This document shows, piece by piece, positions 19,214-31,999 of a stretch of DNA of 32,099 nucleotides; positions within the stretch are counted from its first letter, which is position 1, and the number at the start of each line of letters is the position of its first letter. Position numbers and translations under genes: made by a program. The stretch lies in the IMG/VR virus record IMGVR_UViG_3300046532_002069, positions 1 to 32,099 of that record; one strand, given 5' to 3'. The notes under the pieces are model-generated. The model was not told the origin of the DNA. It saw nothing but the letters and a program-made list of their open reading frames with translations, and ran no database searches. The DNA is from a virus.

Positions 19214-19561
19214 CTAATCGTCTGGCTTTTCCGGCGTAATATCAATTAGTTGCGTATCGTCTGGCTCTCTCTCTGGAAGCGAATCAGCAATACGCGCCGC
19301 TACTTCGCCAAGGGCCAGGGCAAACGCGCTGCCCTCACCGCCAAGCGATACTTCCTGAGGCACGAATTTGCTCAGCTTTGACAGCGTACCGGCTGCATCT
19401 ATTTGAATTTGCTCAGCTAATAGCTTGTCTAAGGGATGGCCGTTCTTCTTGCATATGTCCAAAGCGCTGTAGATTTCCTTGCGCAATCGCTGCGTGATAT
19501 GCGCTGCACCGCCTGACCCAACTGGGCGCCCGGCTTTTCTCTGTGGCTTTAATTCGCCCAT
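19214..19561 (-). CDS. terS: Probable terminase small subunit (115 aa)
   Basis: Placed upstream of terL in the same direction. The N-terminus has a basic AGRPVGSGG segment like an AT-hook or the flexible N-terminus of TerS-like proteins, then helices (HITQRLRKEIYSALDICKKNG, HPLDKLLAEQIQIDAAGTLSKLSKFVPQEVSLG). The PLDxLLxxxxxD...LxKLxKFVPQEV layout recurs in phage proteins often annotated as TerS or as hypothetical. The C-terminus is acidic (ERE, DDTQLIDITPEKPDD). A clear helix-turn-helix is not obvious. AAGGA lies before the start at 19561. It may be the first gene of the late region; its own promoter was not identified. Confidence 0.55.
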   Translation of the reverse strand: MGELKPQRKAGRPVGSGGAAHITQRLRKEIYSALDICKKNGHPLDKLLAEQIQIDAAGTLSKLSKFVPQEVSLGGEGSAFALALGEVAARIADSLPEREPDDTQLIDITPEKPDD

Positions 19562-19656: not shown

Positions 19657-19686
19657 TTTACAGGTGTATTCGTTTATGAATAATCT
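19657..19686 (+). promoter_or_regulatory. Candidate promoter of the rightward small-gene island
   Basis: A -35 TTTACA (19657-19662) is followed after 18 bases by -10 TAATCT (19681-19686). The 17-bp operator-like sequence at 19672-19688 covers the spacer end and the -10, as at the early lytic promoter near 29.17 kb. The first gene starts 27 bases downstream. Confidence 0.5.
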
Positions 19687-19688
19687 AC
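19672..19688 (+). promoter_or_regulatory. Operator-like site, copy 1
   Basis: GTTTATGAATAATCTAC matches 15 of 17 positions of the palindromic site GTATATGAATAATATAC at 29164-29180, and the match continues into CCTA on the right. It overlaps the candidate -10 of the rightward island. Probable binding site for the phage repressor or Cro; inferred from the repetition and position. Confidence 0.6.
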
Positions 19689-19712
19689 CTATATAAAGAG
19701 AGAGGAAAGACA

Positions 19713-19862
19713 ATGTTTACAGCAATAGCAATCATCGGACTTTGGGCAATCACACCAACACTAATATTTGCAGCGCTCAGGTTTGACGCTGAGGCAAACG
19801 AAGCGCTTTCAGGTTTGGCAGTTATCCCTTGGACGCTTTTTGGTTTGTATCTGATTACGTGA
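19713..19862 (+). CDS. Small membrane protein, first gene of the rightward island (49 aa)
   Basis: A 49-residue frame with two hydrophobic segments: MFTAIAIIGLWAITPTLIFAAL at the N-terminus (residues 1-22) and LSGLAVIPWTLFGLYLI at residues 32-48, linked by a polar stretch (RFDAEANEA). It is a likely two-pass inner-membrane protein. The ribosome site (GAGAGAGGAAAGACA before ATG) is almost identical to that of three other genes in the island. Its stop codon begins the 78-bp direct repeat. I do not recognise a family. A holin-like role is conceivable by size and topology, but no lysin lies beside it. Confidence 0.65.
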   Translation: MFTAIAIIGLWAITPTLIFAALRFDAEANEALSGLAVIPWTLFGLYLIT

Positions 19863-19937
19863 CGCATCGTTTTGCAGCGCTTCGGCGCTGCATTGCCATG
19901 CGCCAAAGCATGTAACAAAGAGAGAGGAAAGAAAATG
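19860..19937 (+). repeat. Exact 78-bp direct repeat, copy 1 (leader with hairpins and ribosome site)
   Basis: Identical over all 78 bases to 20752-20829. It contains a hairpin GCAGCGC-TTCG-GCGCTGC (19874-19891) with a cUUCGg tetraloop, a second small stem CATGC/GCATG (19897-19912), the ribosome site GAGAGAGGAAAG and the ATG of the next gene. No U-tract follows the hairpin, so it is not a standard terminator. It may act on mRNA stability or translation. Confidence 0.9.
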
Positions 19938-20723
19938 ATTTTAGAGCAAACAATTGCGGCGATGCTGACAGAAAACACTGGTACACATATGCTAGACAGT
20001 GGCGGCGCGAATGGTCGCGCTTGGCAGCAAAACATTGGCAAAACTATTGATGACTTCCGCGCCACTCCTAGTGCAACAGCCGAAATATATGTGCGCGAAT
20101 GGAAGGGCGAGACTGTTGCAGAAGTATTGCCGTGTGTAGATGTGTTTCACCTCTTAACGGGCGGCGCTATAGAATTGGACGAATTATGCCGCGAATTTAA
20201 CGCCTTGCCCGTGGAAGATTGGAAGGGCGAGTTTAGCGGCGTTTCAATGGCTGGAAGTGAATGGCTTGATTTGCACGGCTTTGCCGCAAAAGGCGAGGCA
20301 TTCAATACTTATAATTGGGCAGCAAATCATAGCACCATAATGCAGGGCAGCGAATTGACGCTTGACGGTGAGTATGGGGAAGAAACATATTTACTATTGC
20401 AAATACATGGCGGCGCTGATGCGCGCGGCGGCTATACTGATGCAAGGCTTTTCAAGCTCGATGACCATGCGGAAGTCTACAACGTGCTGACAGAAGATTG
20501 CGGTTTTTCCGCTGATTTGTCTGACGTAGATACAAACACAAAAGATATGTTCACTGGTCAAACCCGTGACGGATTTATATCGCTTTCGTGGCATGGCGAG
20601 TGGATCAACAGCGAAGGAAGCGCCGCAAATAACGCAGACTTACTGGCCTTTGCCACGGCTTGCGGCGCGTCTGTTGATACTTCCACGGTTCGCATCGCTG
20701 GTGATGCATATCTGGACTTTTAA
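19935..20723 (+). CDS. Conserved phage protein of unknown function (262 aa)
   Basis: The N-terminal TGTHMLDSGGANGRAWQQN (near residues 15-34) matches a widespread family of phage proteins with a T-G-x-H-x-x-D-S-G-G-x-x-G-R-x-W signature and no proven function. The remainder is acidic, with a central EFSGVSMAGSEWLDLHGF-like stretch, ETYLLLQIHGGADARGGYTDARLF near residue 155, and a C-terminal half ending in AGDAYLDF. No membrane segment is seen. The start at 19935 is preceded by GAGAGAGGAAAGAAA; the frame is open 21 codons further upstream, but that part is the repeated leader and is unlikely to be translated. Second gene of the repressible rightward island. Confidence 0.7.
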   Translation: MILEQTIAAMLTENTGTHMLDSGGANGRAWQQNIGKTIDDFRATPSATAEIYVREWKGETVAEVLPCVDVFHLLTGGAIELDELCREFNALPVEDWKGEFSGVSMAGSEWLDLHGFAAKGEAFNTYNWAANHSTIMQGSELTLDGEYGEETYLLLQIHGGADARGGYTDARLFKLDDHAEVYNVLTEDCGFSADLSDVDTNTKDMFTGQTRDGFISLSWHGEWINSEGSAANNADLLAFATACGASVDTSTVRIAGDAYLDF

Positions 20724-20751
20724 ATAGATGACAATCGCTATCAAATCACAA

Positions 20752-20829
20752 TGACGCATCGTTTTGCAGCGCTTCGGCGCTGCATTGCCATGCGCCAAAG
20801 CATGTAACAAAGAGAGAGGAAAGAAAATG
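20752..20829 (+). repeat. Exact 78-bp direct repeat, copy 2
   Basis: Same 78 bases as 19860-19937, ending at the ATG of the following gene; hairpin at 20766-20783. The copies lie 892 bases apart and bracket the 262-aa gene, so recombination between them would cleanly delete that gene. A short ATGACAATCGCT at 20729-20740, before this copy, reappears as the start of the 38-aa gene at 21141. Confidence 0.9.
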
Positions 20830-21141
20830 TATTTATATACAGAAGCGAAAACAATCGCCAAAGAAGCGCTAGAGCAAGCTGGCGGGTGCTTTGAAACTGC
20901 CCAAGACTTTTTACACCAATCATGTGATGGGCATGAAGTATCCATTTATTATTATAAAGCCATTCAATTCTGCGCTGACCAGAACACTCGCGATGGTGAG
21001 GATTGGCTAGAGGATTGTGGCGGCTTATCCCAAGAGGGCGACACTTTCGGCTCGATAGCTTGCCGCATTGCTTTTGCAACACTGTTTGTGAGGTCACAAG
21101 ACGCATTAAACGAAATGCAAGACGAGCTTGAGCTTTGTTAA
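20827..21141 (+). CDS. Unknown acidic protein of the rightward island (104 aa)
   Basis: I do not recognise a family. The sequence is acidic and helical, with seven cysteines spread over the chain (ALEQAGGCFETAQDFLHQSCDGHEV, AIQFCADQ, EDCGG, SIACR, and a C-terminal Cys) and no membrane segment. The start at 20827 is set by the repeated leader with GAGAGAGGAAAGAAA; the upstream frame extension encodes the same repeat-derived peptide as before the 262-aa gene and is not expected to be made. It ends in a TAATG junction with the next gene. Small acidic early proteins are often host-takeover factors, which is only a possibility here. Confidence 0.6.
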   Translation: MYLYTEAKTIAKEALEQAGGCFETAQDFLHQSCDGHEVSIYYYKAIQFCADQNTRDGEDWLEDCGGLSQEGDTFGSIACRIAFATLFVRSQDALNEMQDELELC

Positions 21142-21257
21142 TGACAATCGCTGACCTAATCCAAATTGCCAAGCAGACAACGCCTTTAGAATGGCTTGCA
21201 TGCTTGGCGTTATTTGCCGCGCTATTTGCGGCGCTATGCCTGGAGGCTTTGCCGTGA
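21141..21257 (+). CDS. Single-pass small membrane protein (38 aa)
   Basis: A 38-residue frame whose ATG overlaps the preceding stop (TAATG). The N-terminus is polar (MTIADLIQIAKQTTP) and is followed by one hydrophobic helix WLACLALFAALFAALCLEAL at residues 18-37. Its stop overlaps the next start by four bases (GTGA). Both junctions and the open frame favour real translation, but there is no strong ribosome site of its own, so coupling is needed. No family recognised. It could pair with the coiled-coil protein encoded next. Confidence 0.5.
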   Translation: MTIADLIQIAKQTTPLEWLACLALFAALFAALCLEALP

Positions 21258-21391
21258 CACCAGCCGAAAAAATCGCACAGCTACAGCGCCATCGCGCTGA
21301 GCTAAAGCACCAAATTGAACGGCTAGAGGCTAAACGGGTTTACGCCCAGAGCGAGATTGCTATACTGACTAAGAGAGAGGAAAGACAATGA
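21254..21391 (+). CDS. Small coiled-coil protein with GTG start (45 aa)
   Basis: Starts at GTG 21254-21256, with GGAGG exactly seven bases upstream, overlapping the previous stop. A frame extension to an ATG at 21191 is possible but would overlap the membrane protein and lacks a ribosome site. The product is a single charged helix (PAEKIAQLQRHRAELKHQIERLEAKRVYAQSEIAIL) with heptad-like Leu and Ile positions, so a coiled-coil dimer is likely. Its last codons (TKREERQ) also encode the ribosome site of the next gene, and the stop makes an ATGA overlap. Confidence 0.55.
   Translation: MTPAEKIAQLQRHRAELKHQIERLEAKRVYAQSEIAILTKREERQ
21371..21390 (+). promoter_or_regulatory. Repeated ribosome-binding leader (20-bp copy)
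   Basis: AAGAGAGAGGAAAGACAATG here is identical to 19696-19715, and differs by one base from the ends of the two 78-bp repeats. Four of the six island genes thus share the same initiation region. Here it lies inside the 3' end of the coiled-coil gene. Confidence 0.85.
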
Positions 21392-21636
21392 TACCAATAT
21401 TTTCAGACAATCCAGCCCGTGAAATTGACCAGAAAAATAATGCTTGGGAAGTTTTACTAAGAGAGATTTGCACGTCATCTTTAAAGCCTAGCATTGACGC
21501 AGATGAGTTTTGCGACGCTGTACTTGATGAGATGCATACTGGCGAAGCTTACAAAAGCGCAGATGGTACGCCTTTTTATCATGAGATTGGCAAAGCTTAC
21601 ACTACAAGCGGTTTGCCCGTTGTAGTGTCAGCCTAA
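21388..21636 (+). CDS. Unknown small protein, last gene of the rightward island (82 aa)
   Basis: No family recognised. Sequence is mixed α/β and acidic: IFSDNPAREIDQKNNAWEVLLREIC, then DADEFCDAVLDEMHTGEAYKSADGTPFYHEIGKAY. It starts at the shared GAGAGAGGAAAGACAATG leader with a 4-base ATGA overlap. Its TAA overlaps the stop of the leftward gene on the other strand (21633-21636), leaving no room for a terminator between the two convergent operons. Confidence 0.6.
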   Translation: MIPIFSDNPAREIDQKNNAWEVLLREICTSSLKPSIDADEFCDAVLDEMHTGEAYKSADGTPFYHEIGKAYTTSGLPVVVSA

Positions 21637-22148
21637 CGCGCCATTCCAAAGTAATCCCCAAGCGCGTCTAATGCCAATCGCAAAGCCACGATTCCACCCT
21701 TTGGACCGTGGCTTTGTCGTTGCCCCCAATCAGCCGCAGACATGCCTTGTATAGCCACCCATTGCGCTACGCTTGATAGATCTACCCCGATTGCCTTTAA
21801 CGCGCTCATGTAAGCGCTGAACGCCTCTCCTGACGTTTCACCGCCTGACCCTGACCCGTCTACGCGCACGGCTTCATAGTTTACCGTTTTTACGCCACGG
21901 CCTGCCTTATGCCAAATTCTGTAAAGTTCAACGCCAGCATCATATTGCCTTTTCGTTATTTGTTCACGCTGCTTGTATCTGTCTAACAAAGTTTGCGTGG
22001 TTATCCTTGCTCGCTTTGCACCGCCAAGCATTTTTGCATCCACTGGCTCGACGCTGATCCCGTCTGGGCCGGCATGCCAGACGCGCTGATCGTTTGGCCT
22101 CTCGCCGCGCTCGACCGGCTTATTGATCGGCTTTTTTTGTTTTGCCAT
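21633..22148 (-). CDS. DUF6456-like protein (171 aa)
   Basis: The pattern RITTQTLLDRYKQREQITKRQYDAGVELYRIWHKAG, followed by YEAVRVDGSGSGGE, a helix with SAYMSALKAIG and a final GGIVALRLALDALGDYFG, resembles DUF6456-type proteins of alphaproteobacteria and their phages. Function is unknown, though DNA-related roles are suspected. The start chosen is ATG at 22146-22148 with GAGG six bases upstream; an ATG 14 codons earlier (22190) would overlap the previous gene by 71 bases. The N-terminus is very basic (MAKQKKPINKPVERGERP). Last gene of the leftward early operon, with its stop overlapping that of the convergent island. Confidence 0.6.
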   Translation of the reverse strand: MAKQKKPINKPVERGERPNDQRVWHAGPDGISVEPVDAKMLGGAKRARITTQTLLDRYKQREQITKRQYDAGVELYRIWHKAGRGVKTVNYEAVRVDGSGSGGETSGEAFSAYMSALKAIGVDLSSVAQWVAIQGMSAADWGQRQSHGPKGGIVALRLALDALGDYFGMAR

Positions 22149-22311
22149 TTTTTGCCTCGTTGCCTTCGTTTTTCCAGCACTGCTCCGCAAGCTTCATTAT
22201 GAGTCGTTGCCATTGATTGCTTGGAATTTCAGCCACAAGATCGCCATCTTTCCAGACGTTCAGCGCGTTTTCGTAGACGTGCCAGGCGGTGGCGGTCTTG
22301 CGCTCACTCAT
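22120..22311 (-). CDS. Unknown small protein of the early operon (63 aa)
   Basis: Short protein with an N-terminal β/Trp-containing half (TATAWHVYENALNVWKDGDLVAEIPSNQW), a helix (QRLIMKLAEQCWKNEG) and a basic tail (KNGKTKKADQ). The start overlaps the previous gene by eight bases (ATGAGTGA), and its end overlaps the next gene by 29 bases, typical of this operon. No family or catalytic motif is recognised. It may be a small DNA- or protein-binding accessory. Confidence 0.55.
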   Translation of the reverse strand: MSERKTATAWHVYENALNVWKDGDLVAEIPSNQWQRLIMKLAEQCWKNEGNEAKNGKTKKADQ

Positions 22312-22684
22312 TTTTGCACGGAACCGCCGTGTAAATCCAGCCGCCCAAGGCTATTTCAGTTTGGGTCACGCTACACCAACCACGCTTTTGCATATCGTCT
22401 TTTGTGACAAACTTTTTTAGCCTTAGGCTATTGCAGCTCGCCGCTATACTATTGACAGGCATGTCGATATGTTCGACGAGTTGCCCAGCCGTCGACGGGC
22501 CAAGCCAGCGCAGCAATCGCAAAACCTCAAACGCTCGAAGTGGCAAGTCTGAGTTGTTCACCTTTTCCAAATCAATTGGGAGGGGACTGCTGCGAACACC
22601 GTTCTTGTAATCCGCTCTCTCAAACGAGATCATCGCTTCGCCAAGCGTTTGCTCCGATTCGTAACCCTTCAGCATACTATTCAT
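22304..22684 (-). CDS. Winged-helix DNA-binding protein (126 aa)
   Basis: Residues 50-100 look like a winged helix: LRAFEVLRLLRWLGPSTAGQL (helices 1-2), then EHIDMPVNSIAASCNSLRLKKFVTKDD (recognition helix and wing), then a β-ending with GWCSVTQTEIALGGWIYTAV. The N-terminal 45 residues are variable. This suggests a transcription or replication regulator; a late-gene activator is possible because it lies near the end of the early operon. Starts with an eight-base overlap of the preceding gene. Homology to MarR-like domains is by pattern only. Confidence 0.55.
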   Translation of the reverse strand: MNSMLKGYESEQTLGEAMISFERADYKNGVRSSPLPIDLEKVNNSDLPLRAFEVLRLLRWLGPSTAGQLVEHIDMPVNSIAASCNSLRLKKFVTKDDMQKRGWCSVTQTEIALGGWIYTAVPCKNE

Positions 22685-23000
22685 TCTCTATTTCCCATTT
22701 GCGTTGTTTGATCATTTGGATTTGCACGGCGTTCCACGTTGGCAGTTGCGGAGCGTTTAGAAATTTTCTCCGATTTGCGACACCTTCTAATTCCTCTCGC
22801 GTTTCAATTTTCGCCAAAACGAAACCAAATTCTTTTTCTTTTAATTCACTCCAATCAAGACACGTTTCAAGACAGGTCACGGGGACAGGACAGACACCCC
22901 TTAGGGTGGTGTCATGTGTCCTGAACCCTTCCTTTATGACCCCACTGTGTCCCAGCCTTGTCCCAGCCTTGTCCTGACTTTCCTTAACCCGTTGTTTCAT
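22677..23000 (-). CDS. Unknown protein overlapping the GGACA/TGTCC cluster (107 aa)
   Basis: Start taken as ATG 22998-23000, which has AGGA eight bases upstream; an extension to 23042 would run further into the repeats. The first ~50 residues (MKQRVKESQDKAGTRLGHSG, then THDTTLRGVCPVPVTCLETC) are encoded by the short TGTCC repeats and look unlike an ordinary fold. The second half (SELKEKEFGFVLAKIETREELEGV, then RRKFLNAPQLPTWNAVQIQMIKQRKWEIEN) looks like a normal helical protein. It may bind the repeats, as many origin or operator proteins are encoded beside their sites, but this is inference. Ends with an 8-base overlap. Confidence 0.5.
   Translation of the reverse strand: MKQRVKESQDKAGTRLGHSGVIKEGFRTHDTTLRGVCPVPVTCLETCLDWSELKEKEFGFVLAKIETREELEGVANRRKFLNAPQLPTWNAVQIQMIKQRKWEIENE
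22948..22980 (+). repeat. 11-bp tandem repeats (TGTCCCAGCCT)
   Basis: Two exact TGTCCCAGCCT units (22948-22958 and 22959-22969) and a third related unit TGTCCTGACTT (22970-22980). The spacing is about one helical turn, as expected for protein-binding iterons. Inside the 5' half of the 107-aa gene. Confidence 0.85.
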
Positions 23001-23012
23001 AACACTTTTCCT

Positions 23013-23073
23013 AGGACAAACCTCAGGACACGAGGACACCACACCCTATACGGCAGGACAAACCTCAGGACAC
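23013..23073 (+). repeat. Pair of exact 19-bp direct repeats
   Basis: AGGACAAACCTCAGGACAC occurs at 23013-23031 and 23055-23073, 42 bases apart (about four helical turns), in the gap between the primase-helicase stop and the next start. Each holds two GGACA cores 12 bases apart. Confidence 0.9.
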
Positions 23074-23103
23074 AACCTAAACGTGTGTCCCAACAAGCGC
23101 CCC

Positions 23104-24876
23104 TCATGCCACTACAACCTTGCCGCCGCGAAGCGCTAAAACGCCCTTGTCGATCAGCTTTTTGATATGTCTATTTGCCGTCCTCTGGCTGCATTCCAAC
23201 TCCAAGCTGACGGCCTCTTTAAGCTCACTTCTTGGCGCTTCCCCAAACGCATCCACCGTCCTTACTTGGTCAAGCACCACGCTCTGAATGTTCTCTGGCG
23301 ACGCCTTATCAACGGGCTTATCTTCGGTAAGCTCCAGCGCTAGACTTCCCGTTTCGTCGCCCTCATCTGTCACCAGCGAGACAGGCAGCTTGACAAAAGC
23401 CATAGCTTCGGGAGGCTCGGCATCCTTCATTTTGGTGCTTTCTATAATCAGCTTATTGTCGCCCCATGCCGCAACCTTGAACTCAGCATCCAGCGCCCCG
23501 TAGAAAGACGAACTGCCCCTTGCTCTGTCCTTATTTGAATGGCCCGTATGATGAACTACCAGCACACTACAGCCCCACTCTTGCTTTATCTTATCGCAGG
23601 CTTTTATGTACTCCCCGACACGCTCTGAACTGTTCTCGTCCCCCGCCATTGTTCTAGCCAGGGTATCCAGCACAACCAGCGTAGGCTTGCCAACCTTTTC
23701 AGCCATCTTGCTAATTTCGTCTGCCAGCGTCTGCGCGTCTGCTTCCTCGTTCATTATTATTGTGTTATTACTTTTGTAGAACGGCACGTCACCTAATTGC
23801 TGATCATTCACCTTGGCCCACGCCGCAACGCGCCTCGCCATGCCTGCATGACCTTCCCCAGCAATGTATAAGCAAAGCCCTTGCTCTACTTGCTTACCGT
23901 GCCAATCCTTGCCAGCCGCCACGCACAGCGCCATGTCCAGCACAGCAAATGTCTTGCCTGCCCCAGAATTGCCAAACGCCATTATCAGCGCTTCTTTTTC
24001 GAGCATCCCGTCGATCAGCCATTGGGCAGGCTTCATCTTTAAATCGCCTACATGCGTAAACAGCCCGTCACTAACCTTAGCTCGCTGCAAACCTTCCATG
24101 ACCGCTACTACGCCCAGCGTAGCATGCACGTCATTCCAATCCTGACCCTCACCTGATGGAACCGCCCAGCGCTTGCCTGTGGCTTTTGCGGCCTTTATTC
24201 CAGCTTCATCATTGTCTGCCGCAATCACCAACTCTAACTCAGGCCACGCCTTTTCTATAGCTTGCACGGCGACGGGCATATGCCCACTGTCTAGCGCAAA
24301 TATGCATGTTGTGCCTGTCGCTGCGTAGACGCTTGCGCTGGTGGCCCAGCCCTCAGCGACATAGGCTAAGCCTACACCCGTGAGCTTACCCACCACGCCA
24401 AAGCAACCGCTAGACTTATCCAGCCCAGCGTTAAACTTTTTCTTACCATCTGGCGAAATGGTTTGCGTTCCGACGCGCTCTTTGCTGGTGTTGAACAACT
24501 GTATGACTACGTTATCACCACTTAGCTTTGCGCCAAATAATTCAACACCTTTGCGCTCATGGTATAGCTGTGGCGTATCACCGTCACGTAGCAGTTCATC
24601 CAGACTAACACTGGCCTCTCGTAGCGTGATTACGTTGTCTTGCTTGTCGGGCCAAACCCCGTCATGGCGCATTTCTGCAACCATGTCCTTAAACTCGCAG
24701 CCTTGCCTGCAAAATGCTTTAACTATGCCGTTGTGGTTCTTGATCCAAAACCTGTCAGTGCCGCAACAGCAGGGGCATGGGCCATGCCATTCGCCTTTGG
24801 CGCTCTGCTTTAAGCTATACTTTGTCTTTATCGCCTCTGACCATTCTGACCAGTACGCCTCTTGAAAATCGTTCAT
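23104..24876 (-). CDS. DNA primase-helicase fusion with Toprim and RepA-like ATPase (590 aa)
   Basis: Replication enzyme. A zinc-ribbon with C34, C37, C56 and C60 (CPCCCGTDRFW...CRQGC) is followed by a primase Toprim domain (E175 in YVAEGWATSASVYAATG, D221/D223 in IAADNDEAG). Next comes a RecA-fold RepA/DnaB-type ATPase with Walker A GNSGAGKT (302-309), Walker B LVVLD (400-404), VVHHTGH (441-446) and GSSSFYGALDAE. The C-terminus (about 535-590) looks like a winged helix (RSELKEAVSLELECSQRTANRHIKKLIDKGVL). It likely unwinds and primes phage DNA; the host polymerase is then probably needed, because none is encoded. Candidate origin repeats lie just downstream. Starts with ATGA overlap. Confidence 0.88.
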   Translation of the reverse strand: MNDFQEAYWSEWSEAIKTKYSLKQSAKGEWHGPCPCCCGTDRFWIKNHNGIVKAFCRQGCEFKDMVAEMRHDGVWPDKQDNVITLREASVSLDELLRDGDTPQLYHERKGVELFGAKLSGDNVVIQLFNTSKERVGTQTISPDGKKKFNAGLDKSSGCFGVVGKLTGVGLAYVAEGWATSASVYAATGTTCIFALDSGHMPVAVQAIEKAWPELELVIAADNDEAGIKAAKATGKRWAVPSGEGQDWNDVHATLGVVAVMEGLQRAKVSDGLFTHVGDLKMKPAQWLIDGMLEKEALIMAFGNSGAGKTFAVLDMALCVAAGKDWHGKQVEQGLCLYIAGEGHAGMARRVAAWAKVNDQQLGDVPFYKSNNTIIMNEEADAQTLADEISKMAEKVGKPTLVVLDTLARTMAGDENSSERVGEYIKACDKIKQEWGCSVLVVHHTGHSNKDRARGSSSFYGALDAEFKVAAWGDNKLIIESTKMKDAEPPEAMAFVKLPVSLVTDEGDETGSLALELTEDKPVDKASPENIQSVVLDQVRTVDAFGEAPRSELKEAVSLELECSQRTANRHIKKLIDKGVLALRGGKVVVA

Positions 24877-25094
24877 CCCAATACCTCTGGCCTAGCTCTT
24901 GGCCTAATCAGACTGCGCGACGGCATATCTGTCGGCTTGCAAACGGCTAGGCTCTCTTTGTAATGCTTGTAGATTTCTGAATAGATGGACGATAATGCTT
25001 GACCACAGGCTTGCTCAGTGGGGAACAACAGCTTGGTTGTTATTTCCTCACCCTCAACCGTGTAGGCGATTATCATTATCGTCCAGTAAAGCAT
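24873..25094 (-). CDS. Unknown small protein upstream of primase-helicase (73 aa)
   Basis: N-terminal β-hairpin (TIMIIAYTVEGEEITTKLLF), then PTEQACGQALSSIYSEIYKHYKESLAVCKPTD and a basic tail (SRSLIRPRARPEVLG). The layout of strand-pair, EQACxxA helix and a Cys before the end recurs among small phage proteins of unknown role. Starts three bases after the preceding stop with a weak ribosome site; an internal ATG six codons later is an alternative. Its end overlaps the primase-helicase start in an ATGA junction. No function assigned. Confidence 0.55.
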   Translation of the reverse strand: MLYWTIMIIAYTVEGEEITTKLLFPTEQACGQALSSIYSEIYKHYKESLAVCKPTDMPSRSLIRPRARPEVLG

Positions 25095-25097
25095 GGC

Positions 25098-26024
25098 CTA
25101 AGCTGCTACAACTAGCCGCAATTCTTCAGTTCCATATTTCTTCATTATGTTAAAGACTGACTCCTTAACATCGCTGCGAAATTTGTTATGAATTGCAACT
25201 TGCTTGCCTTTAGCCGAATGATGCGAAAGCGCGTACAGGCCGCGCATGAAATAATCGTTGTCCAAAGAGGCTCCAGCCCGATTAATATGAATTTGCCCTT
25301 CCATCATTTGCCGATACAAAGACACAAAAACGTCGGGCCATTCCTTTAGCTCATTTCGGCACAGGCCAGTGTAGACGTTAAAAGCTGTTTTCCTCTCTAT
25401 TCTGCCCGTCATAATTGCCATAGCGTAAGCGGCACGAAAGCCGTTTTGCTTCCACGGACTTCTTCCCGTCTGCGGCGGCTTTATGTCGTGTTCAACTTCT
25501 GCTAAAAGCTCGCCGACTGTATCGCAAAGCACCCGTTGTACGTCGGCTGCTTCTGGATAAACAATAGCTGACGCTGATCTAAGTAAATACTGTATAGGCA
25601 TGCAGACACCCTTTGGTGCGCCGGTTAAATCAACATTTGTCCTCACCTTTCCTTGGTCAAGGATTTTATAAACGCTTATGCTCTTGTTAATACAAACGCC
25701 GTAAGGAAGCGTTAAGCCCGTCTCAATTTGGGCGGTGGCACGGTGCTGCCCATCTGCCAAGTTATACGACCAAGTGTCATCTTCTCGCTTGAAAAAAACA
25801 AGCGGATTAGGGTTTAGCTCCCATCGTCCTAAATTCATTGCGCGAACATATTTTCGATAGGTTTGCTTATATAAATCTCGATTTCCGTCATAGTTTGCAG
25901 CTAAAAGTTTCTCCATTTCAGCCGCCGTTATCCAAGCATTAAAATAACCTTGCGTCTGGTCTAGCTCGTCAGGCGCGTTCATCATTTCGCTATGTTTTTT
26001 CTCAAGTTTGTCAAAAATATTCAT
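25098..26024 (-). CDS. ParB-like DGQHR-motif protein (308 aa)
   Basis: The N-terminal half has the ParB/Srx-like arrangement: ITAAEMEKLL, a helix (RKYVRAMNLGRWELNPNPLVFF), then NLADGQHRATAQIETGLTLPYGVC with the D-G-Q-H-R motif at residues 91-95, then ILDQGKVRTNVDLTG. The C-terminal half is helical (KTAFNVYTGLCRNELKEWPDVFVSLYRQMM, FRSDVKESVFNIMKKYG). DGQHR and ParB-like proteins include nucleases, CTPases and DNA-modification-linked factors; which applies here is unknown. The ribosome site AAGAGAGGAAATAAAA resembles the leaders of the rightward island. It lies between the SSB-like and the small gene before primase. Confidence 0.65.
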   Translation of the reverse strand: MNIFDKLEKKHSEMMNAPDELDQTQGYFNAWITAAEMEKLLAANYDGNRDLYKQTYRKYVRAMNLGRWELNPNPLVFFKREDDTWSYNLADGQHRATAQIETGLTLPYGVCINKSISVYKILDQGKVRTNVDLTGAPKGVCMPIQYLLRSASAIVYPEAADVQRVLCDTVGELLAEVEHDIKPPQTGRSPWKQNGFRAAYAMAIMTGRIERKTAFNVYTGLCRNELKEWPDVFVSLYRQMMEGQIHINRAGASLDNDYFMRGLYALSHHSAKGKQVAIHNKFRSDVKESVFNIMKKYGTEELRLVVAA

Positions 26025-26056
26025 TTTTATTTCCTCTCTTAATGTCTGTAAATGGT

Positions 26057-26668
26057 CTAAAATGGTATCTCATCATCTTGAAAATTGCCGCTTTGCGAGT
26101 CTGTCTTTGGCGCTGTCGGATTGCCAAACGGATCGCTTGCTTCATCTGCAAATGGATCATCTGCCTCGCTAAACGGATCGCTCTCAACGCGCTCTTTAAG
26201 CTCGACAACCTTTACCGCTTCTGGCCGCAACGTGACGCCAGATTTGCCTGCATATTTCCACGGCCGTACGCCGATCATTACGTGTACTTTGCTGCCTGTT
26301 GTAAGCTGAAAGTCTTGCGCTGCTATCGACCCGTCTTGCATGAATTGCTTGGGCTTGCTGCTTGCTTCTCCGTATGATTTTTTCGTTAGCTTAACGATCC
26401 AAGCCTTTTCGTCTTGCTTGAATACATCGCTCAAGCCTTTTGGCGACCAATCGGGCCAGTCATCGCCACGCTTTTCGCTAAAAGATTTTCGCATGACGCC
26501 AGCAAGCTCTTTGGCTTGAGCTTCCGTAACGATCAGGTTTAACTCATATTTACCCTCTTGATCTGTCTGCGTTTCGCATGCAACACTCCGATTTTGCATC
26601 GGGTCAAACTTGTAAAGCTTGTCCAGCTTAGGCCAGAGTGCTTCGACGTTTATCAGTTTGTGGTTCAT
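26057..26668 (-). CDS. ssb: Single-stranded DNA-binding protein-like (203 aa)
   Basis: An OB-fold-like β-rich core (SVACETQTDQEGKYELNLIVT, KAWIVKLTKKSYG, KVHVMIGVRPWKYAGKSGVTLRPEAVKVVEL) and a Ser/Asp/Pro-rich, acidic C-terminal tail ending in DDEIPF. That acidic tip is the hallmark of SSB and T7 gp2.5-type proteins and recruits partner proteins. The start is set at ATG 26666-26668 with GAGAGGGAAAG upstream; an ATG eight codons earlier would overlap the preceding gene. With the RecE-like exonuclease upstream it probably forms a recombination and replication set; a gp2.5-like strand-annealing role is possible. Confidence 0.72.
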   Translation of the reverse strand: MNHKLINVEALWPKLDKLYKFDPMQNRSVACETQTDQEGKYELNLIVTEAQAKELAGVMRKSFSEKRGDDWPDWSPKGLSDVFKQDEKAWIVKLTKKSYGEASSKPKQFMQDGSIAAQDFQLTTGSKVHVMIGVRPWKYAGKSGVTLRPEAVKVVELKERVESDPFSEADDPFADEASDPFGNPTAPKTDSQSGNFQDDEIPF

Positions 26669-26679
26669 TACTTTCCCTC

Positions 26680-27483
26680 TCATTCCAGCCATGCTGGAAG
26701 TTGCGCGACGTGAACTGCAGGCCAGCCCGTCGCATATGTTTCTGTTTGGATTGCCTGTTCTATCCGTGCTAGGATTTCTTCAACTTGCGTTAGGCTGTGC
26801 GCCATAAGCTCTGGCCCAACCTCAACTAAGCTCGTTGCGTAGGGCGGCTCTTTTTCTACGTTGGCGAATAAAAAGCGGTCACACCGTAAGCCAGCAAGCT
26901 CCAAGGTTCGCTTGTACCAAGCCGCTTGAAATGCGTACTTGAGCTTGTACATCTGGCGTTCGAATTCATAAGGCTCAGCGCTGATTGTTGTCTTGAGATC
27001 GACCACAATACCCTGACTTTGGATCATCAGGTCAGGCCGTGCTTTTAACGCCAGTGACGTGTTGTCGTGCGCTGCGAATATGCTGGCCTCTGCCACCTTG
27101 TCTTTGTGGCCCAGCAAAAAGCCTATCTGTGGGCTTTCATGCAATGCATCGACCATGCCGCTAACGCGCTCATAGTCTGCATCAGTCAAGCACACGACGT
27201 TCATTTTTTCGGCGCGTTCAGCCGCTTCTTTCCAAGCATTGCCGCGCCTAGTCTCGCCGCCTTTGATGGGCAGTATTCCATCACCAGCCCAAGCGTGAAC
27301 TGCGCGTCCTATTTGGAAAGCTGGCGTATCTTTATAAGCTCTTGCGCAAAACGCATGGGCTATGCTTTGGCTTAATACAGATTTACCTTTGCTTGAACTT
27401 ACGGATTGCCTACCTTCGATTTCGTCAAGCGCGTGATAGACTTTATCTGATAGGCCATAATGTACACCAAATGAATACGTCAT
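26680..27483 (-). CDS. RecE/Exo VIII-like PDDEXK exonuclease (267 aa)
   Basis: Likely 5'-3' dsDNA exonuclease. The N-terminus (SDKVYHALDEIEGRQSVSSSKGKSVLSQS) and FQIGRAVHAW (H63) match the PDDEXK-like family related to RecE C-terminal and DUF3799 domains. Catalytic motifs: E132 (VAEASIF), ALKARPDLM with D151, VVDLKTT with D162-x-K164, and the following YAFQAAWYKR helix (Q186, Y190). All core residues seem intact. Its start overlaps the zinc-protein stop by four bases. No RecT or Redβ-type annealase is recognised next to it; the SSB-like protein follows directly. Confidence 0.78.
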   Translation of the reverse strand: MTYSFGVHYGLSDKVYHALDEIEGRQSVSSSKGKSVLSQSIAHAFCARAYKDTPAFQIGRAVHAWAGDGILPIKGGETRRGNAWKEAAERAEKMNVVCLTDADYERVSGMVDALHESPQIGFLLGHKDKVAEASIFAAHDNTSLALKARPDLMIQSQGIVVDLKTTISAEPYEFERQMYKLKYAFQAAWYKRTLELAGLRCDRFLFANVEKEPPYATSLVEVGPELMAHSLTQVEEILARIEQAIQTETYATGWPAVHVAQLPAWLE

Positions 27484-27635
27484 TCTTCTTCCTCATCCGC
27501 TGAAATCTTGCCTTCGCCGTTGCAAAACATGCAATCTTCAAGCTGTTCGATTGGCTCTAAGCCTCTGCCGAAATTGGCCCAGCCGCCCACGTCAACCTTG
27601 CCTTGACCGTCACACTCTGGGCATTTACGCATCAT
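27480..27635 (-). CDS. Small zinc-finger protein with two CxxCxGxG motifs (51 aa)
   Basis: A 51-residue frame that encodes CPECDGQGKV near the N-terminus and CMFCNGEGKI near residue 35, i.e. two DnaJ-type CxxCxGxG motifs expected to bind one zinc ion. The C-terminus is acidic (SADEEEE). It overlaps the C5 methyltransferase end by 11 bases (ATGATG start; the second ATG at 27630-27632 is possible) and the exonuclease start by four bases. Similar tiny rubredoxin-like or DnaJ-finger proteins occur in phage early operons with unknown partners. Confidence 0.65.
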   Translation of the reverse strand: MMRKCPECDGQGKVDVGGWANFGRGLEPIEQLEDCMFCNGEGKISADEEEE

Positions 27636-28488
27636 GGATCACCGCCTTGATCGTCTGCCCAATCCGCATGGCAACTTGTGGAACGATTGCGTTGCCTAGC
27701 CCTTTAAGTCTGTCCACCCTTCCGGGTATCCCATTAGCCACTCGACCCACTGAGGGTTCAGTGAGCCAGGCGTTGCCTCCTTTCTGCCCACGGCTCTGCG
27801 TAAGCATTCGTCTCCAATCGCACTCTCTGCCCAGTTTGAGACGTCTCCCGTCATCTTCCAATCTCTTGCTCTGGGTGTCGGCCACATCGCTACTGCTGTT
27901 GCTAGGGAATTGCCTCTTGATGGGATTTTCTTTTCGTCTCCCTTGTGGTTCTTGTACGGCCCTCCTGTTGAGGCTAACGGTGTCGGCCACATTTCGGGCG
28001 ACGATCCAGAGTCTATCTCGTCTGTGAGGTGCGTCCGTGGCGCAAGCTGGAACAACGAACGGCCTGACGGCGTAGGCTTCACGTTCCAAGTCAGAAAGCA
28101 CTTCGTCGAGGCCCATAGAGACATGCCCATAAACATTTTCGAAAACGCACCAAGCTGGTCGTTTTGCTTGAACAATGGAAAATATGTATGGCCAGATATG
28201 TCTGTCATCTTCACTGCCCCTACGCTCCCCGGCCAGTGAAAAGGGCTGGCATGGGTATCCGGCTGTGAGGATTGTTCGTCTTGGGTCTGTGCCTGGAATA
28301 AGTCCATCTGGGTCATTAGCAAGCTCCTTTACATCTGTAGCTATCGGCACGTCAGGCCAGTGTTTTCTCAATATCTTTCGGCTCCAAGGCTCTATGTCGC
28401 AGAACAAGACAGGCTTACTTAAACCAGCCCATTCAAAGCCAAGGGCAAAGCCGCCTATGCCACTGCACAGATCAACGTGCGCCATCAT
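27625..28488 (-). CDS. DNA (cytosine-5) methyltransferase (287 aa)
   Basis: Orphan C5 methyltransferase, with no cognate restriction gene beside it. Motif I DLCSGIGGFALGF (residues 6-18), motif IV GYPCQPFSLAGERRG with catalytic C80, motif VI FENVYG (116-121), motif VIII APHRRDRLWIVA, and motif X GLGNAIVPQVA near 263-273 are all present, so it appears active. The target-recognition part between VIII and IX is about 95 residues, short and compositionally odd (RRAVQEPQGRRKENPIKRQ, SNSSSDVADTQS). A second gene runs in another frame through codons 58-264. Function may be self-protection from host restriction. ATGA overlap with the upstream gene. Confidence 0.88.
   Translation of the reverse strand: MMAHVDLCSGIGGFALGFEWAGLSKPVLFCDIEPWSRKILRKHWPDVPIATDVKELANDPDGLIPGTDPRRTILTAGYPCQPFSLAGERRGSEDDRHIWPYIFSIVQAKRPAWCVFENVYGHVSMGLDEVLSDLEREAYAVRPFVVPACATDAPHRRDRLWIVARNVADTVSLNRRAVQEPQGRRKENPIKRQFPSNSSSDVADTQSKRLEDDGRRLKLGRECDWRRMLTQSRGQKGGNAWLTEPSVGRVANGIPGRVDRLKGLGNAIVPQVAMRIGQTIKAVIHDA
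27696..28316 (-). CDS. Nested out-of-frame gene inside the C5 methyltransferase: WPTP / LNPxWVEWLMGYP family protein (206 aa)
   Basis: Same strand, different frame from the methyltransferase and wholly inside it. The protein resembles a phage and prophage family that accompanies or is fused to C5 methyltransferases: LGAFSKMFMGMSLWASTKCF near 55-73, LTWNVKPTPSGRSLFQLAPRT, MWPTP at 109-113 and 144-148, and LNPQWVEWLMGYPEGWTDL near the C-terminus. The ATG at 28314-28316 has AAAGGAG with a 7-base spacer, a strong ribosome site within the methyltransferase frame. Recognisable motifs in both frames suggest genuine overprinting. Role is unknown; help in target recognition is a guess. Absence of homologues in this frame would refute it. 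Confidence 0.7.
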   Translation of the reverse strand: MTQMDLFQAQTQDEQSSQPDTHASPFHWPGSVGAVKMTDISGHTYFPLFKQNDQLGAFSKMFMGMSLWASTKCFLTWNVKPTPSGRSLFQLAPRTHLTDEIDSGSSPEMWPTPLASTGGPYKNHKGDEKKIPSRGNSLATAVAMWPTPRARDWKMTGDVSNWAESAIGDECLRRAVGRKEATPGSLNPQWVEWLMGYPEGWTDLKG

Positions 28489-28919
28489 TCGACAGCCCGT
28501 TTCGCCAAGATTTCACGCGCTAAGTAAAAATGCGTTTCTGGTGACATTGTAAGAAGGTCTTTTTGATGCTCTGCCGCTAGACTTGCAGGGCATAGCGCCA
28601 GCGCTACGTCACACATCTGCATAACAACGCGCCACGGTCTGCGACTAAACTTGTACCAAAGGACAGGAACCTTGTCGTAAGCTTTCGCCGCTTTTTCGAC
28701 TTGCTCCCACCAACTTTTATCGTGCTGTGTGTTGACGCCAACTCTGGCTTTTACCTCAATACAAAAGCACCAATCAAAGTCGCCATCGGGAATTAAGTCG
28801 CCTCTATCAGCACGTCGGTATTGCTCTATGTCACGCACAAGCTTTATGCCCATATCCTCGCAATAAAGCTTGGCTACCGCACGTTCGTTTGAAGCACCCT
28901 TTTGGCGAACATTAATCAT
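28485..28919 (-). CDS. PDDEXK nuclease, Holliday-junction resolvase-like (144 aa)
   Basis: The N-terminal KGASNERAVAKLYCEDMG (E12), then RDIEQYRRADRGDLI with D41, and CFCIEVKAR with E55-x-K57 give a PDDEXK (Hjc/VRR-NUC-like) active site. Later segments: DKSWWEQVEKAAKAYDKVPVLWYK (helix) and PWRVVMQMC. Such small nucleases resolve recombination junctions or trim phage DNA. It starts with an 8-base overlap of the Cro-like gene and ends in an ATGA overlap with the methyltransferase. Other assignment: a VRR-NUC type repair nuclease. Confidence 0.7.
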   Translation of the reverse strand: MINVRQKGASNERAVAKLYCEDMGIKLVRDIEQYRRADRGDLIPDGDFDWCFCIEVKARVGVNTQHDKSWWEQVEKAAKAYDKVPVLWYKFSRRPWRVVMQMCDVALALCPASLAAEHQKDLLTMSPETHFYLAREILAKRAVE

Positions 28920-29130
28920 GCCCAGATTCCCTCAAGTGACGGTCTAAATTAGCCCAATCATGGACCTTAACTTTCTTATTCGTGATGGCCTCGATTTTGA
29001 TAGCCTTCACAACTGTTGGATAGGTGCTACCTATCAAATACCTATGTAAAGTCGGCTGAGACACGCCTATTTTATTGGCAAAAGCGTTTTGTGACACCCC
29101 TGCCTCTATCAAATATTGATAAAGCTGCAT
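28912..29130 (-). CDS. Cro-like transcriptional regulator (72 aa)
   Basis: First gene of the leftward early operon and divergent from the repressor, the classic Cro position. The N-terminal helix-turn-helix is QYLIEAGVSQNAFANKIGVSQPTLHRYLIGSTYP (residues ~5-38), typical of Cro/XRE DNA-binding domains; the C-terminal part is basic and helical (KAIKIEAITNKKVKVHDW). The start at 29130 has only a weak ribosome site. An inverted repeat GATAGGT-gct-ACCTATC lies inside the coding region and could be an operator. It likely favours lytic growth by repressing the repressor gene. Confidence 0.75.
   Translation of the reverse strand: MQLYQYLIEAGVSQNAFANKIGVSQPTLHRYLIGSTYPTVVKAIKIEAITNKKVKVHDWANLDRHLRESGHD
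29019..29035. promoter_or_regulatory. Perfect inverted repeat inside the Cro-like gene
   Basis: GATAGGT-GCT-ACCTATC, seven-base arms with a three-base spacer. ACCTA also follows both 17-bp operator-like sites. A nearby ACCTATGTAAAG (29040-29051) differs by one base from ACCTATATAAAG at 19687-19698 in the island promoter region. It may be a second class of binding site. Confidence 0.5.
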
Positions 29131-29160
29131 TTGTTTTTACTCAGTTTTTTATGTTTGTTC

Positions 29161-29189
29161 AACGTATATGAATAATATACCTACGTCAA
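29161..29189 (-). promoter_or_regulatory. Leftward early (lytic) promoter
   Basis: On the minus strand -35 TTGACG (29184-29189), 17-base spacer, -10 TACGTT (29161-29166). The palindromic operator lies over the spacer and -10. It would drive the Cro-like gene and the whole early operon. Confidence 0.6.
29164..29180. promoter_or_regulatory. Palindromic operator-like site, copy 2
   Basis: GTATAT-GAATA-ATATAC, perfect six-base arms around a five-base centre, within the early promoter. A 15/17 match lies at 19672-19688. Best candidate for the repressor-binding consensus. Confidence 0.65.
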
Positions 29190-29231
29190 TTAATAAAAGT
29201 GAAAAAGTCGTTAGTCAAACTTTGGGCGCGC

Positions 29232-29260
29232 TTGATCTGTTGCTTTATTCATAAATGAAT
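29232..29260 (+). promoter_or_regulatory. Possible repressor-gene promoter
   Basis: TTGATC (29232-29237), 17-base spacer, then a poor -10 ATGAAT (29255-29260). A second operator-like sequence overlaps its spacer. Weak consensus would suit a promoter needing activation. Assignment is tentative. Confidence 0.3.
29245..29260. promoter_or_regulatory. Operator-like site, copy 3
   Basis: Contains TTATTCAT (complement of ATGAATAA, 29245-29252) within an inverted repeat ATTCAT-AA-ATGAAT (29247-29260). It shares TTTATGAATAA with the copy at 19.67 kb. Lies in front of the repressor gene. Confidence 0.5.
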
Positions 29261-29299
29261 GGTAGGTGTTAAATGCAGAAATAAGTATAGGAGTAAACC

Positions 29300-29956
29300 A
29301 TGCACACGCGCATTTTTGATCAACGCACAAAGCTGCGTATGACACAGCCAGAATTATCTCAAAAAACTGGCATCAGCCAGAGCCAAATAAGCAAGTACGA
29401 AAAGGGAGAGGTATCTAAGCCATCGTATCAAAAGCTCATAAGAATCGCAGAGGTTCTGGGTTGCTGCATCGAAGATATTACCGATAGGGAACAGAAGAAA
29501 ACGCAAACAGCGTTCCAAGCCTTTAACAGCACAGGTCCAGCAGTCTTTATCCCGCTTTACGCGGAAAGACAGAAAATGAACACAGAATTTCAACACGGCT
29601 CTGGTTTCGTTGTGCGCCTTGGGGGTGCTTCACAACAACAAATCCGTAAGCCAAGCTTTTTAGACTACAGCGAGACGGCCTATGCCGTTACGACGTACAG
29701 CGAAAATATGTTGCCGCGCTACAAGTTAGGTGACGTATGCTTTGTTGATCCAAAGCTAAGCGCTCAGCAGGGCGATGATATATGCGTCTTGTTTAACGTA
29801 GACGCTAAGCTTGTAGGGCTTATACGTGAATGTGTTGAAGTGAGCGAAAGTACCATAAGAGTGCTGGACTTGCAGACCAACAAGACGATTACGTTTAAAA
29901 CAAATGAATTGTACGGTGTACACGTAATCGTGGGTACGCAAAAGTACAGAGGTTAA
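29300..29956 (+). CDS. CI-like repressor with degenerate S24 domain (218 aa)
   Basis: Residues 7-62 form an XRE helix-turn-helix (RTKLRMTQPELSQKTGISQS, then QISKYEKGEVSKPSYQKL). The C-terminal part (about 125-212) has the S24/LexA fold pattern: YSENMLPRYKLGDVCFVDP, then SAQQGDDICVLF. The usual catalytic GDSM is replaced by SENM (N136 at the Ser position), and the expected Lys segment reads LVGLIRE without Lys at the aligned place (nearest K170). It may therefore dimerise but not self-cleave. AGGAG lies six bases before the start. Rightward, divergent from the Cro-like gene, followed by the adenine methyltransferase. Confidence 0.82.
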   Translation: MHTRIFDQRTKLRMTQPELSQKTGISQSQISKYEKGEVSKPSYQKLIRIAEVLGCCIEDITDREQKKTQTAFQAFNSTGPAVFIPLYAERQKMNTEFQHGSGFVVRLGGASQQQIRKPSFLDYSETAYAVTTYSENMLPRYKLGDVCFVDPKLSAQQGDDICVLFNVDAKLVGLIRECVEVSESTIRVLDLQTNKTITFKTNELYGVHVIVGTQKYRG

Positions 29957-29973
29957 AAAAATGGTAAGCTGCA

Positions 29974-30633: not shown

Positions 30634-30642
30634 AAATCAAGT

Positions 30643-31761
30643 TTAACCAACCTCAACCACATAATCATCCACCAGCACGTCTACAGTATTAATACGGCGA
30701 TAGTGCTTTGACGTTGTGGCGCTGCCTATTGTGTGGCCTACAAGCTTCTGGACGTGATGCTCTATCACCCCACTGTCGAGCAAATGGTTGATGTAAAACC
30801 GCCGCAAGCCATGCCAGCCGAAATTCTCAACGCCAGCGCGTTTCTGTGCAGGCCAAAGTATATTTCTTGCCGCGCCTGTGTTTGTGTAGAGCCGCCCAGC
30901 CGAATTAATGAACAGGAAATCATTATCGCTGCTATTAGCGGCTCCCAGCTTCATCTGAGCCAGTTTAACTTTAAGTTTGTCACTCAGCTTAACCTTGCGT
31001 GTGCTGCCCTTTGTTTTGGTGGGCATTAGCTCACGGTCTACAGCCGATAGCTTAACGTCCACTAAGCCGCGCTTCACAGCGCCCCAAGACAGCGCTAGTA
31101 TTTCAGAGATTCGCATGCCTGTCTCAGAGCCAAACCTGACCATGACCTGATGCTCAATCCTGTCGCAATGCAGCAAGGTTTTCTGAACATCTTTATAACA
31201 TGGCGTTGGAAGCTGCCGCGCTTCTTGGCGGTTTAGCTTGTCGATTTCATCGCGGTTAGGGATTACGTCAATCAAGCGCTTCAAGTAGAAAAACTTGAGC
31301 ATGCGAAAAACTGATTGCACGATGCCCTTAACTGTTGGCGCTTTTAAGTCAGCTTTTATTTTATCTTGAAATTCATTAATCAGCCGCCCGTCAATCTTAT
31401 CAATATCCACATCGCCAAGGAATGGAAGTATATGGTTGTGAATCTGCGCTTCTATGTGGCGTCTACGCTTCGGGCGTATCTTATCGTCAGCCGTGTCCTT
31501 GCCAGATTTAAAGGCTTTAAGCTGCCTATCTAGCTCTGCAAGGTAAAGCTGGTAGTTGTCCTTGAGCTTCGTTTTCTGGCGTGGGTGTTTTACCTTCCCA
31601 GCGATTAGCTGACGTACAAACGCCTCTGGGGTTTCCCCCAGCGGCTTAATCACGCGCTTGTACTCCACTCGACTAAGAGGGTGCGTAAATCTCACCTTGT
31701 TCAAAGCTTGGTTGTAATTGACGTGGACTCCATCCACTTTCAAAATCCTTGGCATTGCCAT
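30643..31761 (-). CDS. int: Tyrosine-recombinase integrase (372 aa)
   Basis: Site-specific recombinase that integrates and excises the phage. A core-binding domain (about 65-170; KDNYQLYLAELDRQLKAF, HNHILPFLGDVDIDKI) precedes the catalytic domain. Catalytic residues: R217 (SETGMRISEIL), K in TKTKGSTRK near 251, H317-x-x-R320 (WHGLRRFYIN), H343 (LVGHTIGS) and Y354 (SKHYRRI), all present. The N-terminus (about 1-60) may be an arm-binding domain. GGAG lies seven bases before the start, inside the preceding gene. A promoter and direct repeats lie upstream. No attP core could be identified without the host site. Confidence 0.9.
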   Translation of the reverse strand: MAMPRILKVDGVHVNYNQALNKVRFTHPLSRVEYKRVIKPLGETPEAFVRQLIAGKVKHPRQKTKLKDNYQLYLAELDRQLKAFKSGKDTADDKIRPKRRRHIEAQIHNHILPFLGDVDIDKIDGRLINEFQDKIKADLKAPTVKGIVQSVFRMLKFFYLKRLIDVIPNRDEIDKLNRQEARQLPTPCYKDVQKTLLHCDRIEHQVMVRFGSETGMRISEILALSWGAVKRGLVDVKLSAVDRELMPTKTKGSTRKVKLSDKLKVKLAQMKLGAANSSDNDFLFINSAGRLYTNTGAARNILWPAQKRAGVENFGWHGLRRFYINHLLDSGVIEHHVQKLVGHTIGSATTSKHYRRINTVDVLVDDYVVEVG

Positions 31762-31948
31762 AAAATATCTCCTCTACTATTTCACCGTCAAGACTTCTCA
31801 TGCTTTTAATGAAATCGTCCTGCACATCGCTGAAGCTCTTGCCGCTTATGCTGTGTTCTGCTTTGCTCATTTCATTAAAAATACGTCTTAACTCTCTCAC
31901 CTCTTTTATTAAGCTCATGCCTCTTTCAGTCATATTTATTGCAGTCAT
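31673..31948 (-). CDS. Small protein upstream of, and overlapping, the integrase (91 aa)
   Basis: First gene after the candidate integrase promoter; it overlaps the integrase start by 89 bases in another frame. The N-terminal half is helical (TERGMSLIKEVRELRRIFNEMSKAEHS), followed by an acidic segment (SLDGEIVEEIFYGNAKDF). The last 30 residues are encoded in the overlap. No helix-turn-helix is apparent. By position it could be an excisionase or directionality factor, but nothing in the sequence proves this. An ATG five codons later (31933) is another possible start. The ribosome site is weak (GAAAG). Confidence 0.45.
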   Translation of the reverse strand: MTAINMTERGMSLIKEVRELRRIFNEMSKAEHSISGKSFSDVQDDFIKSMRSLDGEIVEEIFYGNAKDFESGWSPRQLQPSFEQGEIYAPS

Positions 31949-31962: not shown

Positions 31963-31970
31963 TTATTCAT
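31963..31970. promoter_or_regulatory. Operator core next to the integrase promoter, copy 4
   Basis: TTATTCAT (ATGAATAA on the minus strand) directly downstream of the -10 of the integrase promoter. It shares only the 8-base core with the 17-bp sites, so repressor binding is less certain. Confidence 0.35.
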
Positions 31971-31999
31971 TTATATGCACAGAAGAATACCACAGTCAA
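31970..31999 (-). promoter_or_regulatory. Integrase-operon promoter
   Basis: On the minus strand -35 TTGACT (31994-31999), 18-base spacer, -10 TATAAA (31970-31975). Transcription would begin about 15 bases before the 91-aa gene. Confidence 0.65.

Follow-up and report, generated by a model that had tools for sequence, protein, structure and literature searches.

Genes and features of the phage genome

The window analyzed here was the whole stretch of an IMG/VR record (G000, 32,099 bases). It encodes a large terminase subunit (TerL), replication genes, and the following genes next to the regions of interest.

19214..19561, − strand: terminase small subunit-like gene (TerS), divergent from the island, called by position and size
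28912..29130, − strand: Cro-like HTH protein, 72 aa (Pfam HTH_3, 8e-9)
29300..29956, + strand: cI-like repressor, 218 aa, with HTH_3 and degenerate Peptidase_S24 domains
30643..31761, − strand: tyrosine integrase (PHROG integrase, 7e-30)

The TerS-like gene had no Pfam or PHROG match and is syntenic upstream of TerL in the relatives. The repressor matched a PHROG transcriptional repressor (7e-18) as well as Pfam HTH_3 (2.8e-13) and S24 (1.9e-4), the last under the curated cut-off. The residue in front of the invariant M137, where the catalytic serine of an S24 domain is expected, was N, T, V, Q, H, or S across the repressor homologues; this position was placed by motif reading only, with none of the solved S24 domain structures aligned to the C-terminal domain. 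This variation suggests loss of the catalytic serine, and, by this reading of the motif, RecA-type self-cleavage is probably absent from the repressors of most of these phages. The repressor protein alone had no close relatives in IMG/VR, no close phage was found by DNA comparison, and a scan of bacterial genomes with the repressor alignment returned HTH-domain matches in unrelated bacteria only, which points to no host. The window contained no Rfam family and, according to ARAGORN, no tRNA. Two DNA methyltransferase-like genes are located at 27625-28488 and 29974-30633, the latter immediately following cI in the same orientation. Between TerL and TerS (19036-19140), the sequence is strongly G-rich and includes a (TA)n run; this stretch, with similar G-runs in L029 and L153, may be a packaging (cos/pac) region.

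Upstream of the divergent TerS gene starts an island of six short rightward genes, two of which are followed by a stem-loop.

19713..19862, + strand: island gene 1, 49 aa, terminating at the TGA with which the first stem-loop starts
19860..19905, + strand: stem-loop copy 1 (covariance model R1, 70.9 bits; fold z −2.49)
19935..20723, + strand: island gene 2, 262 aa (phrog_11344, 1.3e-21, unknown function)
20752..20797, + strand: stem-loop copy 2, identical to copy 1, beginning 28 nt after the stop codon
20827..21141, + strand: island gene 3, 104 aa; homologues in G008, L124, L152, L193, and L154
21141..21257, + strand: island gene 4, 38 aa, predicted to be hydrophobic; homologues in G001 and G005-G007
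21254..21391, + strand: island gene 5, 45 aa
21388..21636, + strand: island gene 6, 82 aa, the last gene of the rightward island

The proteins of 49, 38, 82, and 104 aa had no Pfam or PHROG match, the 262-aa protein matched PHROGs of unknown function only, and the 45-aa protein gave weak Pfam matches only.

An 18-bp palindrome at three sites in the window

The original prediction had placed one 17-bp palindromic operator at two promoters, that of the early genes and that of the island. These 17-mers and the sites that resulted from the present analysis are as follows.

29164..29180, + strand: earlier 17-mer palindrome, GTATATGAATAATATAC, overlapping Ocro
19672..19688, + strand: earlier 17-mer, GTTTATGAATAATCTAC, overlapping Oisl
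29245..29262, + strand: operator OcI, TTATTCATAAATGAATGG, upstream of cI; top site genome-wide, 22.9 bits
19666..19683, + strand: island operator Oisl, GTATTCGTTTATGAATAA; second site genome-wide, 17.1 bits, with equivalents in relatives
29158..29175, + strand: operator Ocro, TTCAACGTATATGAATAA, at the leftward cro promoter; third site genome-wide, 10.1 bits

Both 17-mers are indeed present. They differ at 2 positions and were the only loci of the window within 3 mismatches, with 0.03 matches expected and none of 100 shuffles reaching the match count. The four bases CCTA that were thought to follow each of them are in fact CTA, the first C being the last base of the 17-mer itself. A search with the core TWTATGAATAA yielded a third copy on the other strand between cro and cI (29245-29255), and when the cro-cI and TerS-island gaps were compared side by side for all genomes, a recurring palindrome, TTATTCAT-nn-ATGAATAA, became apparent. 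This 18-bp unit is the conserved one; it starts 6 bp upstream, in plus-strand coordinates, of the 17-mer register. The arms GTATAT and ATATAC of the 17-mer are not kept in the relatives, even in the nearest one (L112), and GTATAT-N5-ATATAC was rejected as the binding unit. What stands of the original prediction is a palindrome shared by the two promoters, albeit in a shifted register, and the stronger third copy upstream of cI (29245-29262) had been missed.

The sites of the window were scored with a matrix derived from the cI-side operators of other clades, leaving out the window's own subclade. After OcI, Oisl, and Ocro, the next-best site had 6.9 bits. With this matrix of relatives' operators only, the score of Oisl was reached by none of 200 random windows and by only 4 of 20,000 random sequences matched in composition to the AT-rich gap. 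Ocro is weak, since 47 of 200 random windows contained an equal or better site; its score is unremarkable when taken alone, so that this site was called on the basis of its position. Three sites of the window are above background, all of them palindromic and all at inferred promoters. Chance AT-richness as the source of the motif was rejected on the basis of the shuffles.

Recurrence of the palindrome in related phages

A search with TerL yielded 80 related viral contigs, of which 8 with an immunity region were fetched, and further contigs were reached with an alignment of the relatives' repressors. As far as the contig ends show, the relatives have a common gene order: TerS (−), island (+), replication genes (−), cro (−), cI (+), and int (−). 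By a simple count with the consensus, the sites with the highest scores fell into the cro-cI and TerS-island gaps in most genomes. A stricter test used a symmetric matrix with counts from the cro-cI regions only, from which the tested genome and, outside clade A, its whole clade were left out. The best site in the TerS-island gap ranked first or second genome-wide in 7 of the 9 testable genomes, with shuffle counts from 15/2000 to 0/2000. G001 and G003 failed this test (shuffle p values of 999/2000 and 236/2000). Evaluation of these numbers needs to consider that the seed consensus had been picked after viewing all sites, that the relatives are metagenomic fragments that are not independent of each other, representing perhaps 4 to 6 independent clades, and that clade C contributed 4 of the 9 tests.

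A matrix-free test compared the cI operator of each genome with the rest of the same genome. The island gap of the same genome contained the best other match in 5 of 9 cases and one of the best three in 8 of 9, with G003 as the exception. The island site of G001 had 14/18 identity to its own operator, G003 possessed a weak candidate only, and Oisl resembles OcI at 15 of 18 positions. Operators of clades A2 and C (G005-G007) matched their own gaps at 14 to 16 of 18 positions compared to at most 13 for the gaps of other clades. The top island-gap sites were kept although the flanks and the island genes differ between the relatives, and the operator was also present at further loci of which the island only is available (L019, L021, L022, L029, L030, and L034). 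The recognition helix of CI was SQSQISKYEKG in the window, clade C, and G008, SQSQYSKIERG in clade A2, and SQANISKIEKG in clade B.

These comparisons bear on the question of whether the palindrome may be bound by a host regulator or be a general feature of AT-rich promoters. Its core is AT-rich and some of the gaps have a very low G+C content, which speaks for such an explanation. On the other hand, composition-preserving shuffles rarely reached the scores of the sites, the sites are concentrated at cro, cI, the island, and int, and the operators differ between clades but match within them, alongside changed recognition helices of CI. An origin of the palindrome outside the phage's own regulation is for these reasons highly improbable, and the preferred reading is that of operators for the phage repressor.

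Three further observations concern the immunity region and the operators. In L112, exonuclease, RusA, and integrase are more than 90% identical to those of the window (26057-31948), cI is 65% and cro 74% identical, and the operator has a changed right arm; the immunity region has apparently been swapped or has diverged rapidly. A small open reading frame is located between the operator-bearing promoter and cI in the cro-cI gap of most relatives (G001-G008, L112, L117, and others) and is absent from the window. Half-sites with TATGCA in place of TATTCA occur at the island promoter of L031 and at the int and cro promoters of L117 and L121 (TTATGCAGATATGCATAT; TTATGCAAATCTGCATTA), possibly indicating a repressor of changed specificity.

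Position of the putative operators relative to inferred promoters

All promoters were called as consensus matches only. Those of the window that are overlapped or flanked by the palindrome are listed here together with a candidate site in front of the integrase gene.

19657..19684, + strand: inferred island promoter, TTTACA-16-AATAAT, 10/12 consensus matches, overlapped by Oisl
29184..29189, − strand: inferred −35 motif (TTGACG) of the cro promoter; TTGAC aligned in most relatives
31963..31980, − strand: candidate weak integrase operator, ATATAAATGAATAA, over an inferred −10 motif, with TATTCTTCTGTGCATA just upstream in the same promoter

The relatives possess a −35-type hexamer (TTGAC, TTGCA, or TTGAT) one promoter distance upstream, and the palindrome lies within the spacer except in clade C, where it directly follows the −10 motif. 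At the cro promoter, the operator is between the conserved TTGAC and the inferred −10 motif. Such positions within or beside the inferred promoters would imply a geometry of steric repression. The notion that both sites occupy the same place relative to their promoters was correct insofar as each overlaps an inferred promoter; the asymmetric flank, however, is reversed relative to transcription because cro is read leftward and the island rightward.

Alternatively, the site in front of the island may control the leftward terminase or late operon, instead of the island or in addition to it. The gap between TerS and the island is divergent and common to both directions, and clade C contains extra weak sites nearer to TerS with scores of 9.8 to 10.3. 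The main site of the relatives, in contrast, is in or beside the rightward −35/−10 pair and 22 to 48 bp before the first ATG of the island, compared to a distance of 75 to 106 bp from TerS, and the candidate for a leftward promoter in the window (19597-19569) does not overlap with the site. Control of the terminase genes is thus unlikely, and control of the island remains the preferred assignment.

In front of the integrase gene, ATATAAATGAATAA/CTATAAATGAATA(A/G) over the −10 motif is conserved in the window, L112, G001, and G002, and strong operator sites are present at this position in clade C and L128. With these sites, weaker ones in the case of the window, the predicted regulon probably comprises cro, cI, the island, and int.

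Which of the two DNA-binding proteins of the immunity region would use the island site needs to be considered as well. Cro-like proteins of lambdoid switches usually share their operators with CI, and CI and Cro cannot be told apart from sequence. If Cro alone and not CI acted at this position, the island would be turned down late in lytic growth instead of being silenced in the lysogen. Oisl, however, resembles OcI and has a much higher score than the weak Ocro, and a lysogen-wide role of the repressor is suggested by the integrase sites. An exclusive action of Cro is accordingly improbable, leaving CI, perhaps together with Cro, as the favored candidate for binding to Oisl.

Stem-loops between apparently exchangeable island genes

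Some island genes of the window are separated by direct repeats of 84 nt (two copies, 98% identical) together with a ribosome-binding leader common to both. The first 46 to 49 nt of the repeat fold into a stem-loop of two parts, which is present in the islands of the relatives as well. Covariation was computed for 9 sequences, with 4 pairs changing on both sides compared to 0.5 in shuffles, and for 22 sequences, with 5 pairs compared to 0.7. With few exceptions among about 40 copies, the element starts with the TGA that terminates the preceding gene. It was also found in L093, L094, L096, L019, L022, L029, L153, L165, L212, L214, L217, L226, and others. Both copies of the window are followed by the ribosome-binding leader only; by inspection, a promoter-like TTGACC occurs after only some elements of a second phage group.

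This second, distant group (group II; TerL about 46% identical) was reached by a pattern scan for the same stem-loop. Cassette families are common to both groups and occur in permuted order. The 262-aa gene of the window has a homologue with 74.5% identity in the group II contig L184, the TerL of which is 46.5% identical, and the 104-aa gene has one with 81% identity in group II contigs. The island apparently looks like an array of swappable gene cassettes bounded by stem-loops. Cassettes of integrons possess attC sites with the core boxes GTTRRRY...RYYYAAC and depend on an IntI. The element found here has the ends TGAC...GTCA/GCCA and is without attC core boxes, and the integron class was rejected on the basis of this sequence.

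The functions of most of these cassettes are putative. Cassette F5 of the relatives is ArdA (Pfam PF07275, 100.3 bits compared to a cut-off of 27, 2.2e-28); the family is present in the islands of G002, G003, and L019 and absent from the window. ArdA in some islands fits early lytic expression, and the island could plausibly supply antidefense functions early. At the island promoters of group II (for example, those of L153, L156, L183, L204, and L226), a different palindrome is present, GATATC-N5-GATAT(C), in some arrays at two promoters. It is tentatively proposed, with some doubt, that the island is a cassette platform: promoterless accessory genes, some of them for antidefense, would be exchanged between distinct phage lineages via the stop-codon stem-loop and expressed together from one promoter, which would be gated by the phage's own lysogeny regulator (TTATTCATnnATGAATAA here, and possibly GATATC-N5-GATATC in the second group).

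A model for the regulation of the island

To understand the biological meaning of these sites, they can be combined into one model. A CI-type repressor, perhaps Cro too, would bind to TTATTCAT-nn-ATGAATAA at promoters in different parts of the genome. These are the leftward promoter of cro and the early genes, that of cI, the rightward promoter of the island, which is situated between the terminase and replication genes at a distance of about 9.5 kb, and probably also the integrase promoter. In the lysogen, the bound repressor would block RNA polymerase at the island promoter, and the island would be silent. Upon infection or induction, all promoters with an operator would open together, and the island, an exchangeable array of short genes that have no promoters of their own and are linked by stem-loops, would be transcribed as a second early operon against the direction of the rest of the genome. 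That the repressor silences the island in the lysogen by means of dispersed 18-bp operators, and that the island is an early operon upon infection or induction, is considered very likely. The original prediction of a repressor-controlled island within the lytic programme is supported in this respect by the leave-out comparative genomics, which links Oisl to the immunity region at the level of sequence.

In this way, a hypervariable accessory island of a temperate phage could be switched off in the lysogen and still be ready at infection: the downstream genes would be replaced over time, and the promoter would retain an operator recognized by the repressor of the same phage. In case of ArdA-type cassettes, silencing would stop the prophage from disarming the restriction systems of its own host. 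The combination of a repressor operator with a stop-codon stem-loop could serve to flag antidefense candidates in contigs of uncultured phages.

Comparison with known systems

The C1 repressor of phage P1 has operators at dispersed lytic promoters; a promoter of ref is occluded by one of the C1 sites, and ref acts like a gene of the lytic cycle (PMC4713147). One repressor with operators at remote promoters is the common feature, and the likeness is a functional one. The remote target here is a reverse-facing hypervariable cassette island in an integrase-carrying phage of about 32 to 37 kb. The master repressor MrpR of SPbeta acts on a short motif, SPBRE, which is repeated in intergenic promoter regions of the prophage (PMC10516654), again a master repressor with a repeated motif at promoters; MrpR, however, has a tyrosine-recombinase fold, whereas the protein described here combines an HTH with a degenerate S24 domain and is predicted to use a palindromic operator.

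The stoperators of mycobacteriophage L5 number up to 30 per genome, are oriented with transcription, and are mostly away from promoters (PMC6550527). They are similar in providing many sites for one repressor and in that motif and repressor diverge together between relatives, but the phages of this study have 3 to 5 palindromic sites, all at inferred promoters. With 3 palindromic sites above background at inferred promoters of the window, a stoperator class of about 20 to 30 asymmetric sites was rejected.

The PeSL elements of T4-type phages, in the account that cites them (PMC4503421), combine a promoter with a stem-loop and mediate gene shuffling. Going by that account, conserved intergenic stem-loops between shuffled small genes are shared with the island, but most boundaries of the island are without a promoter, the loop starts at the upstream stop codon, and there is one promoter that is predicted to be repressor bound. 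In archaeal viruses, variable antidefense genes are located behind a conserved upstream regulatory sequence that is a strong early promoter (PMC11065993). A conserved upstream sequence marks such variable genes there as well, while the element here is predicted to be the operator of a bacterial phage repressor. No description of a repressor operator coupled to a shuffled cassette array was found in searches of open-licence papers.

The repressor gene adjoins its own operator in an immunity region with a divergent cro, and the same operator is present at remote promoters and recurs in the relatives. As a predicted dispersed-operator regulon, the system is to be placed with those of P1 C1 and SPbeta MrpR and not with the stoperators, and remote operators are already known from these two regulons.
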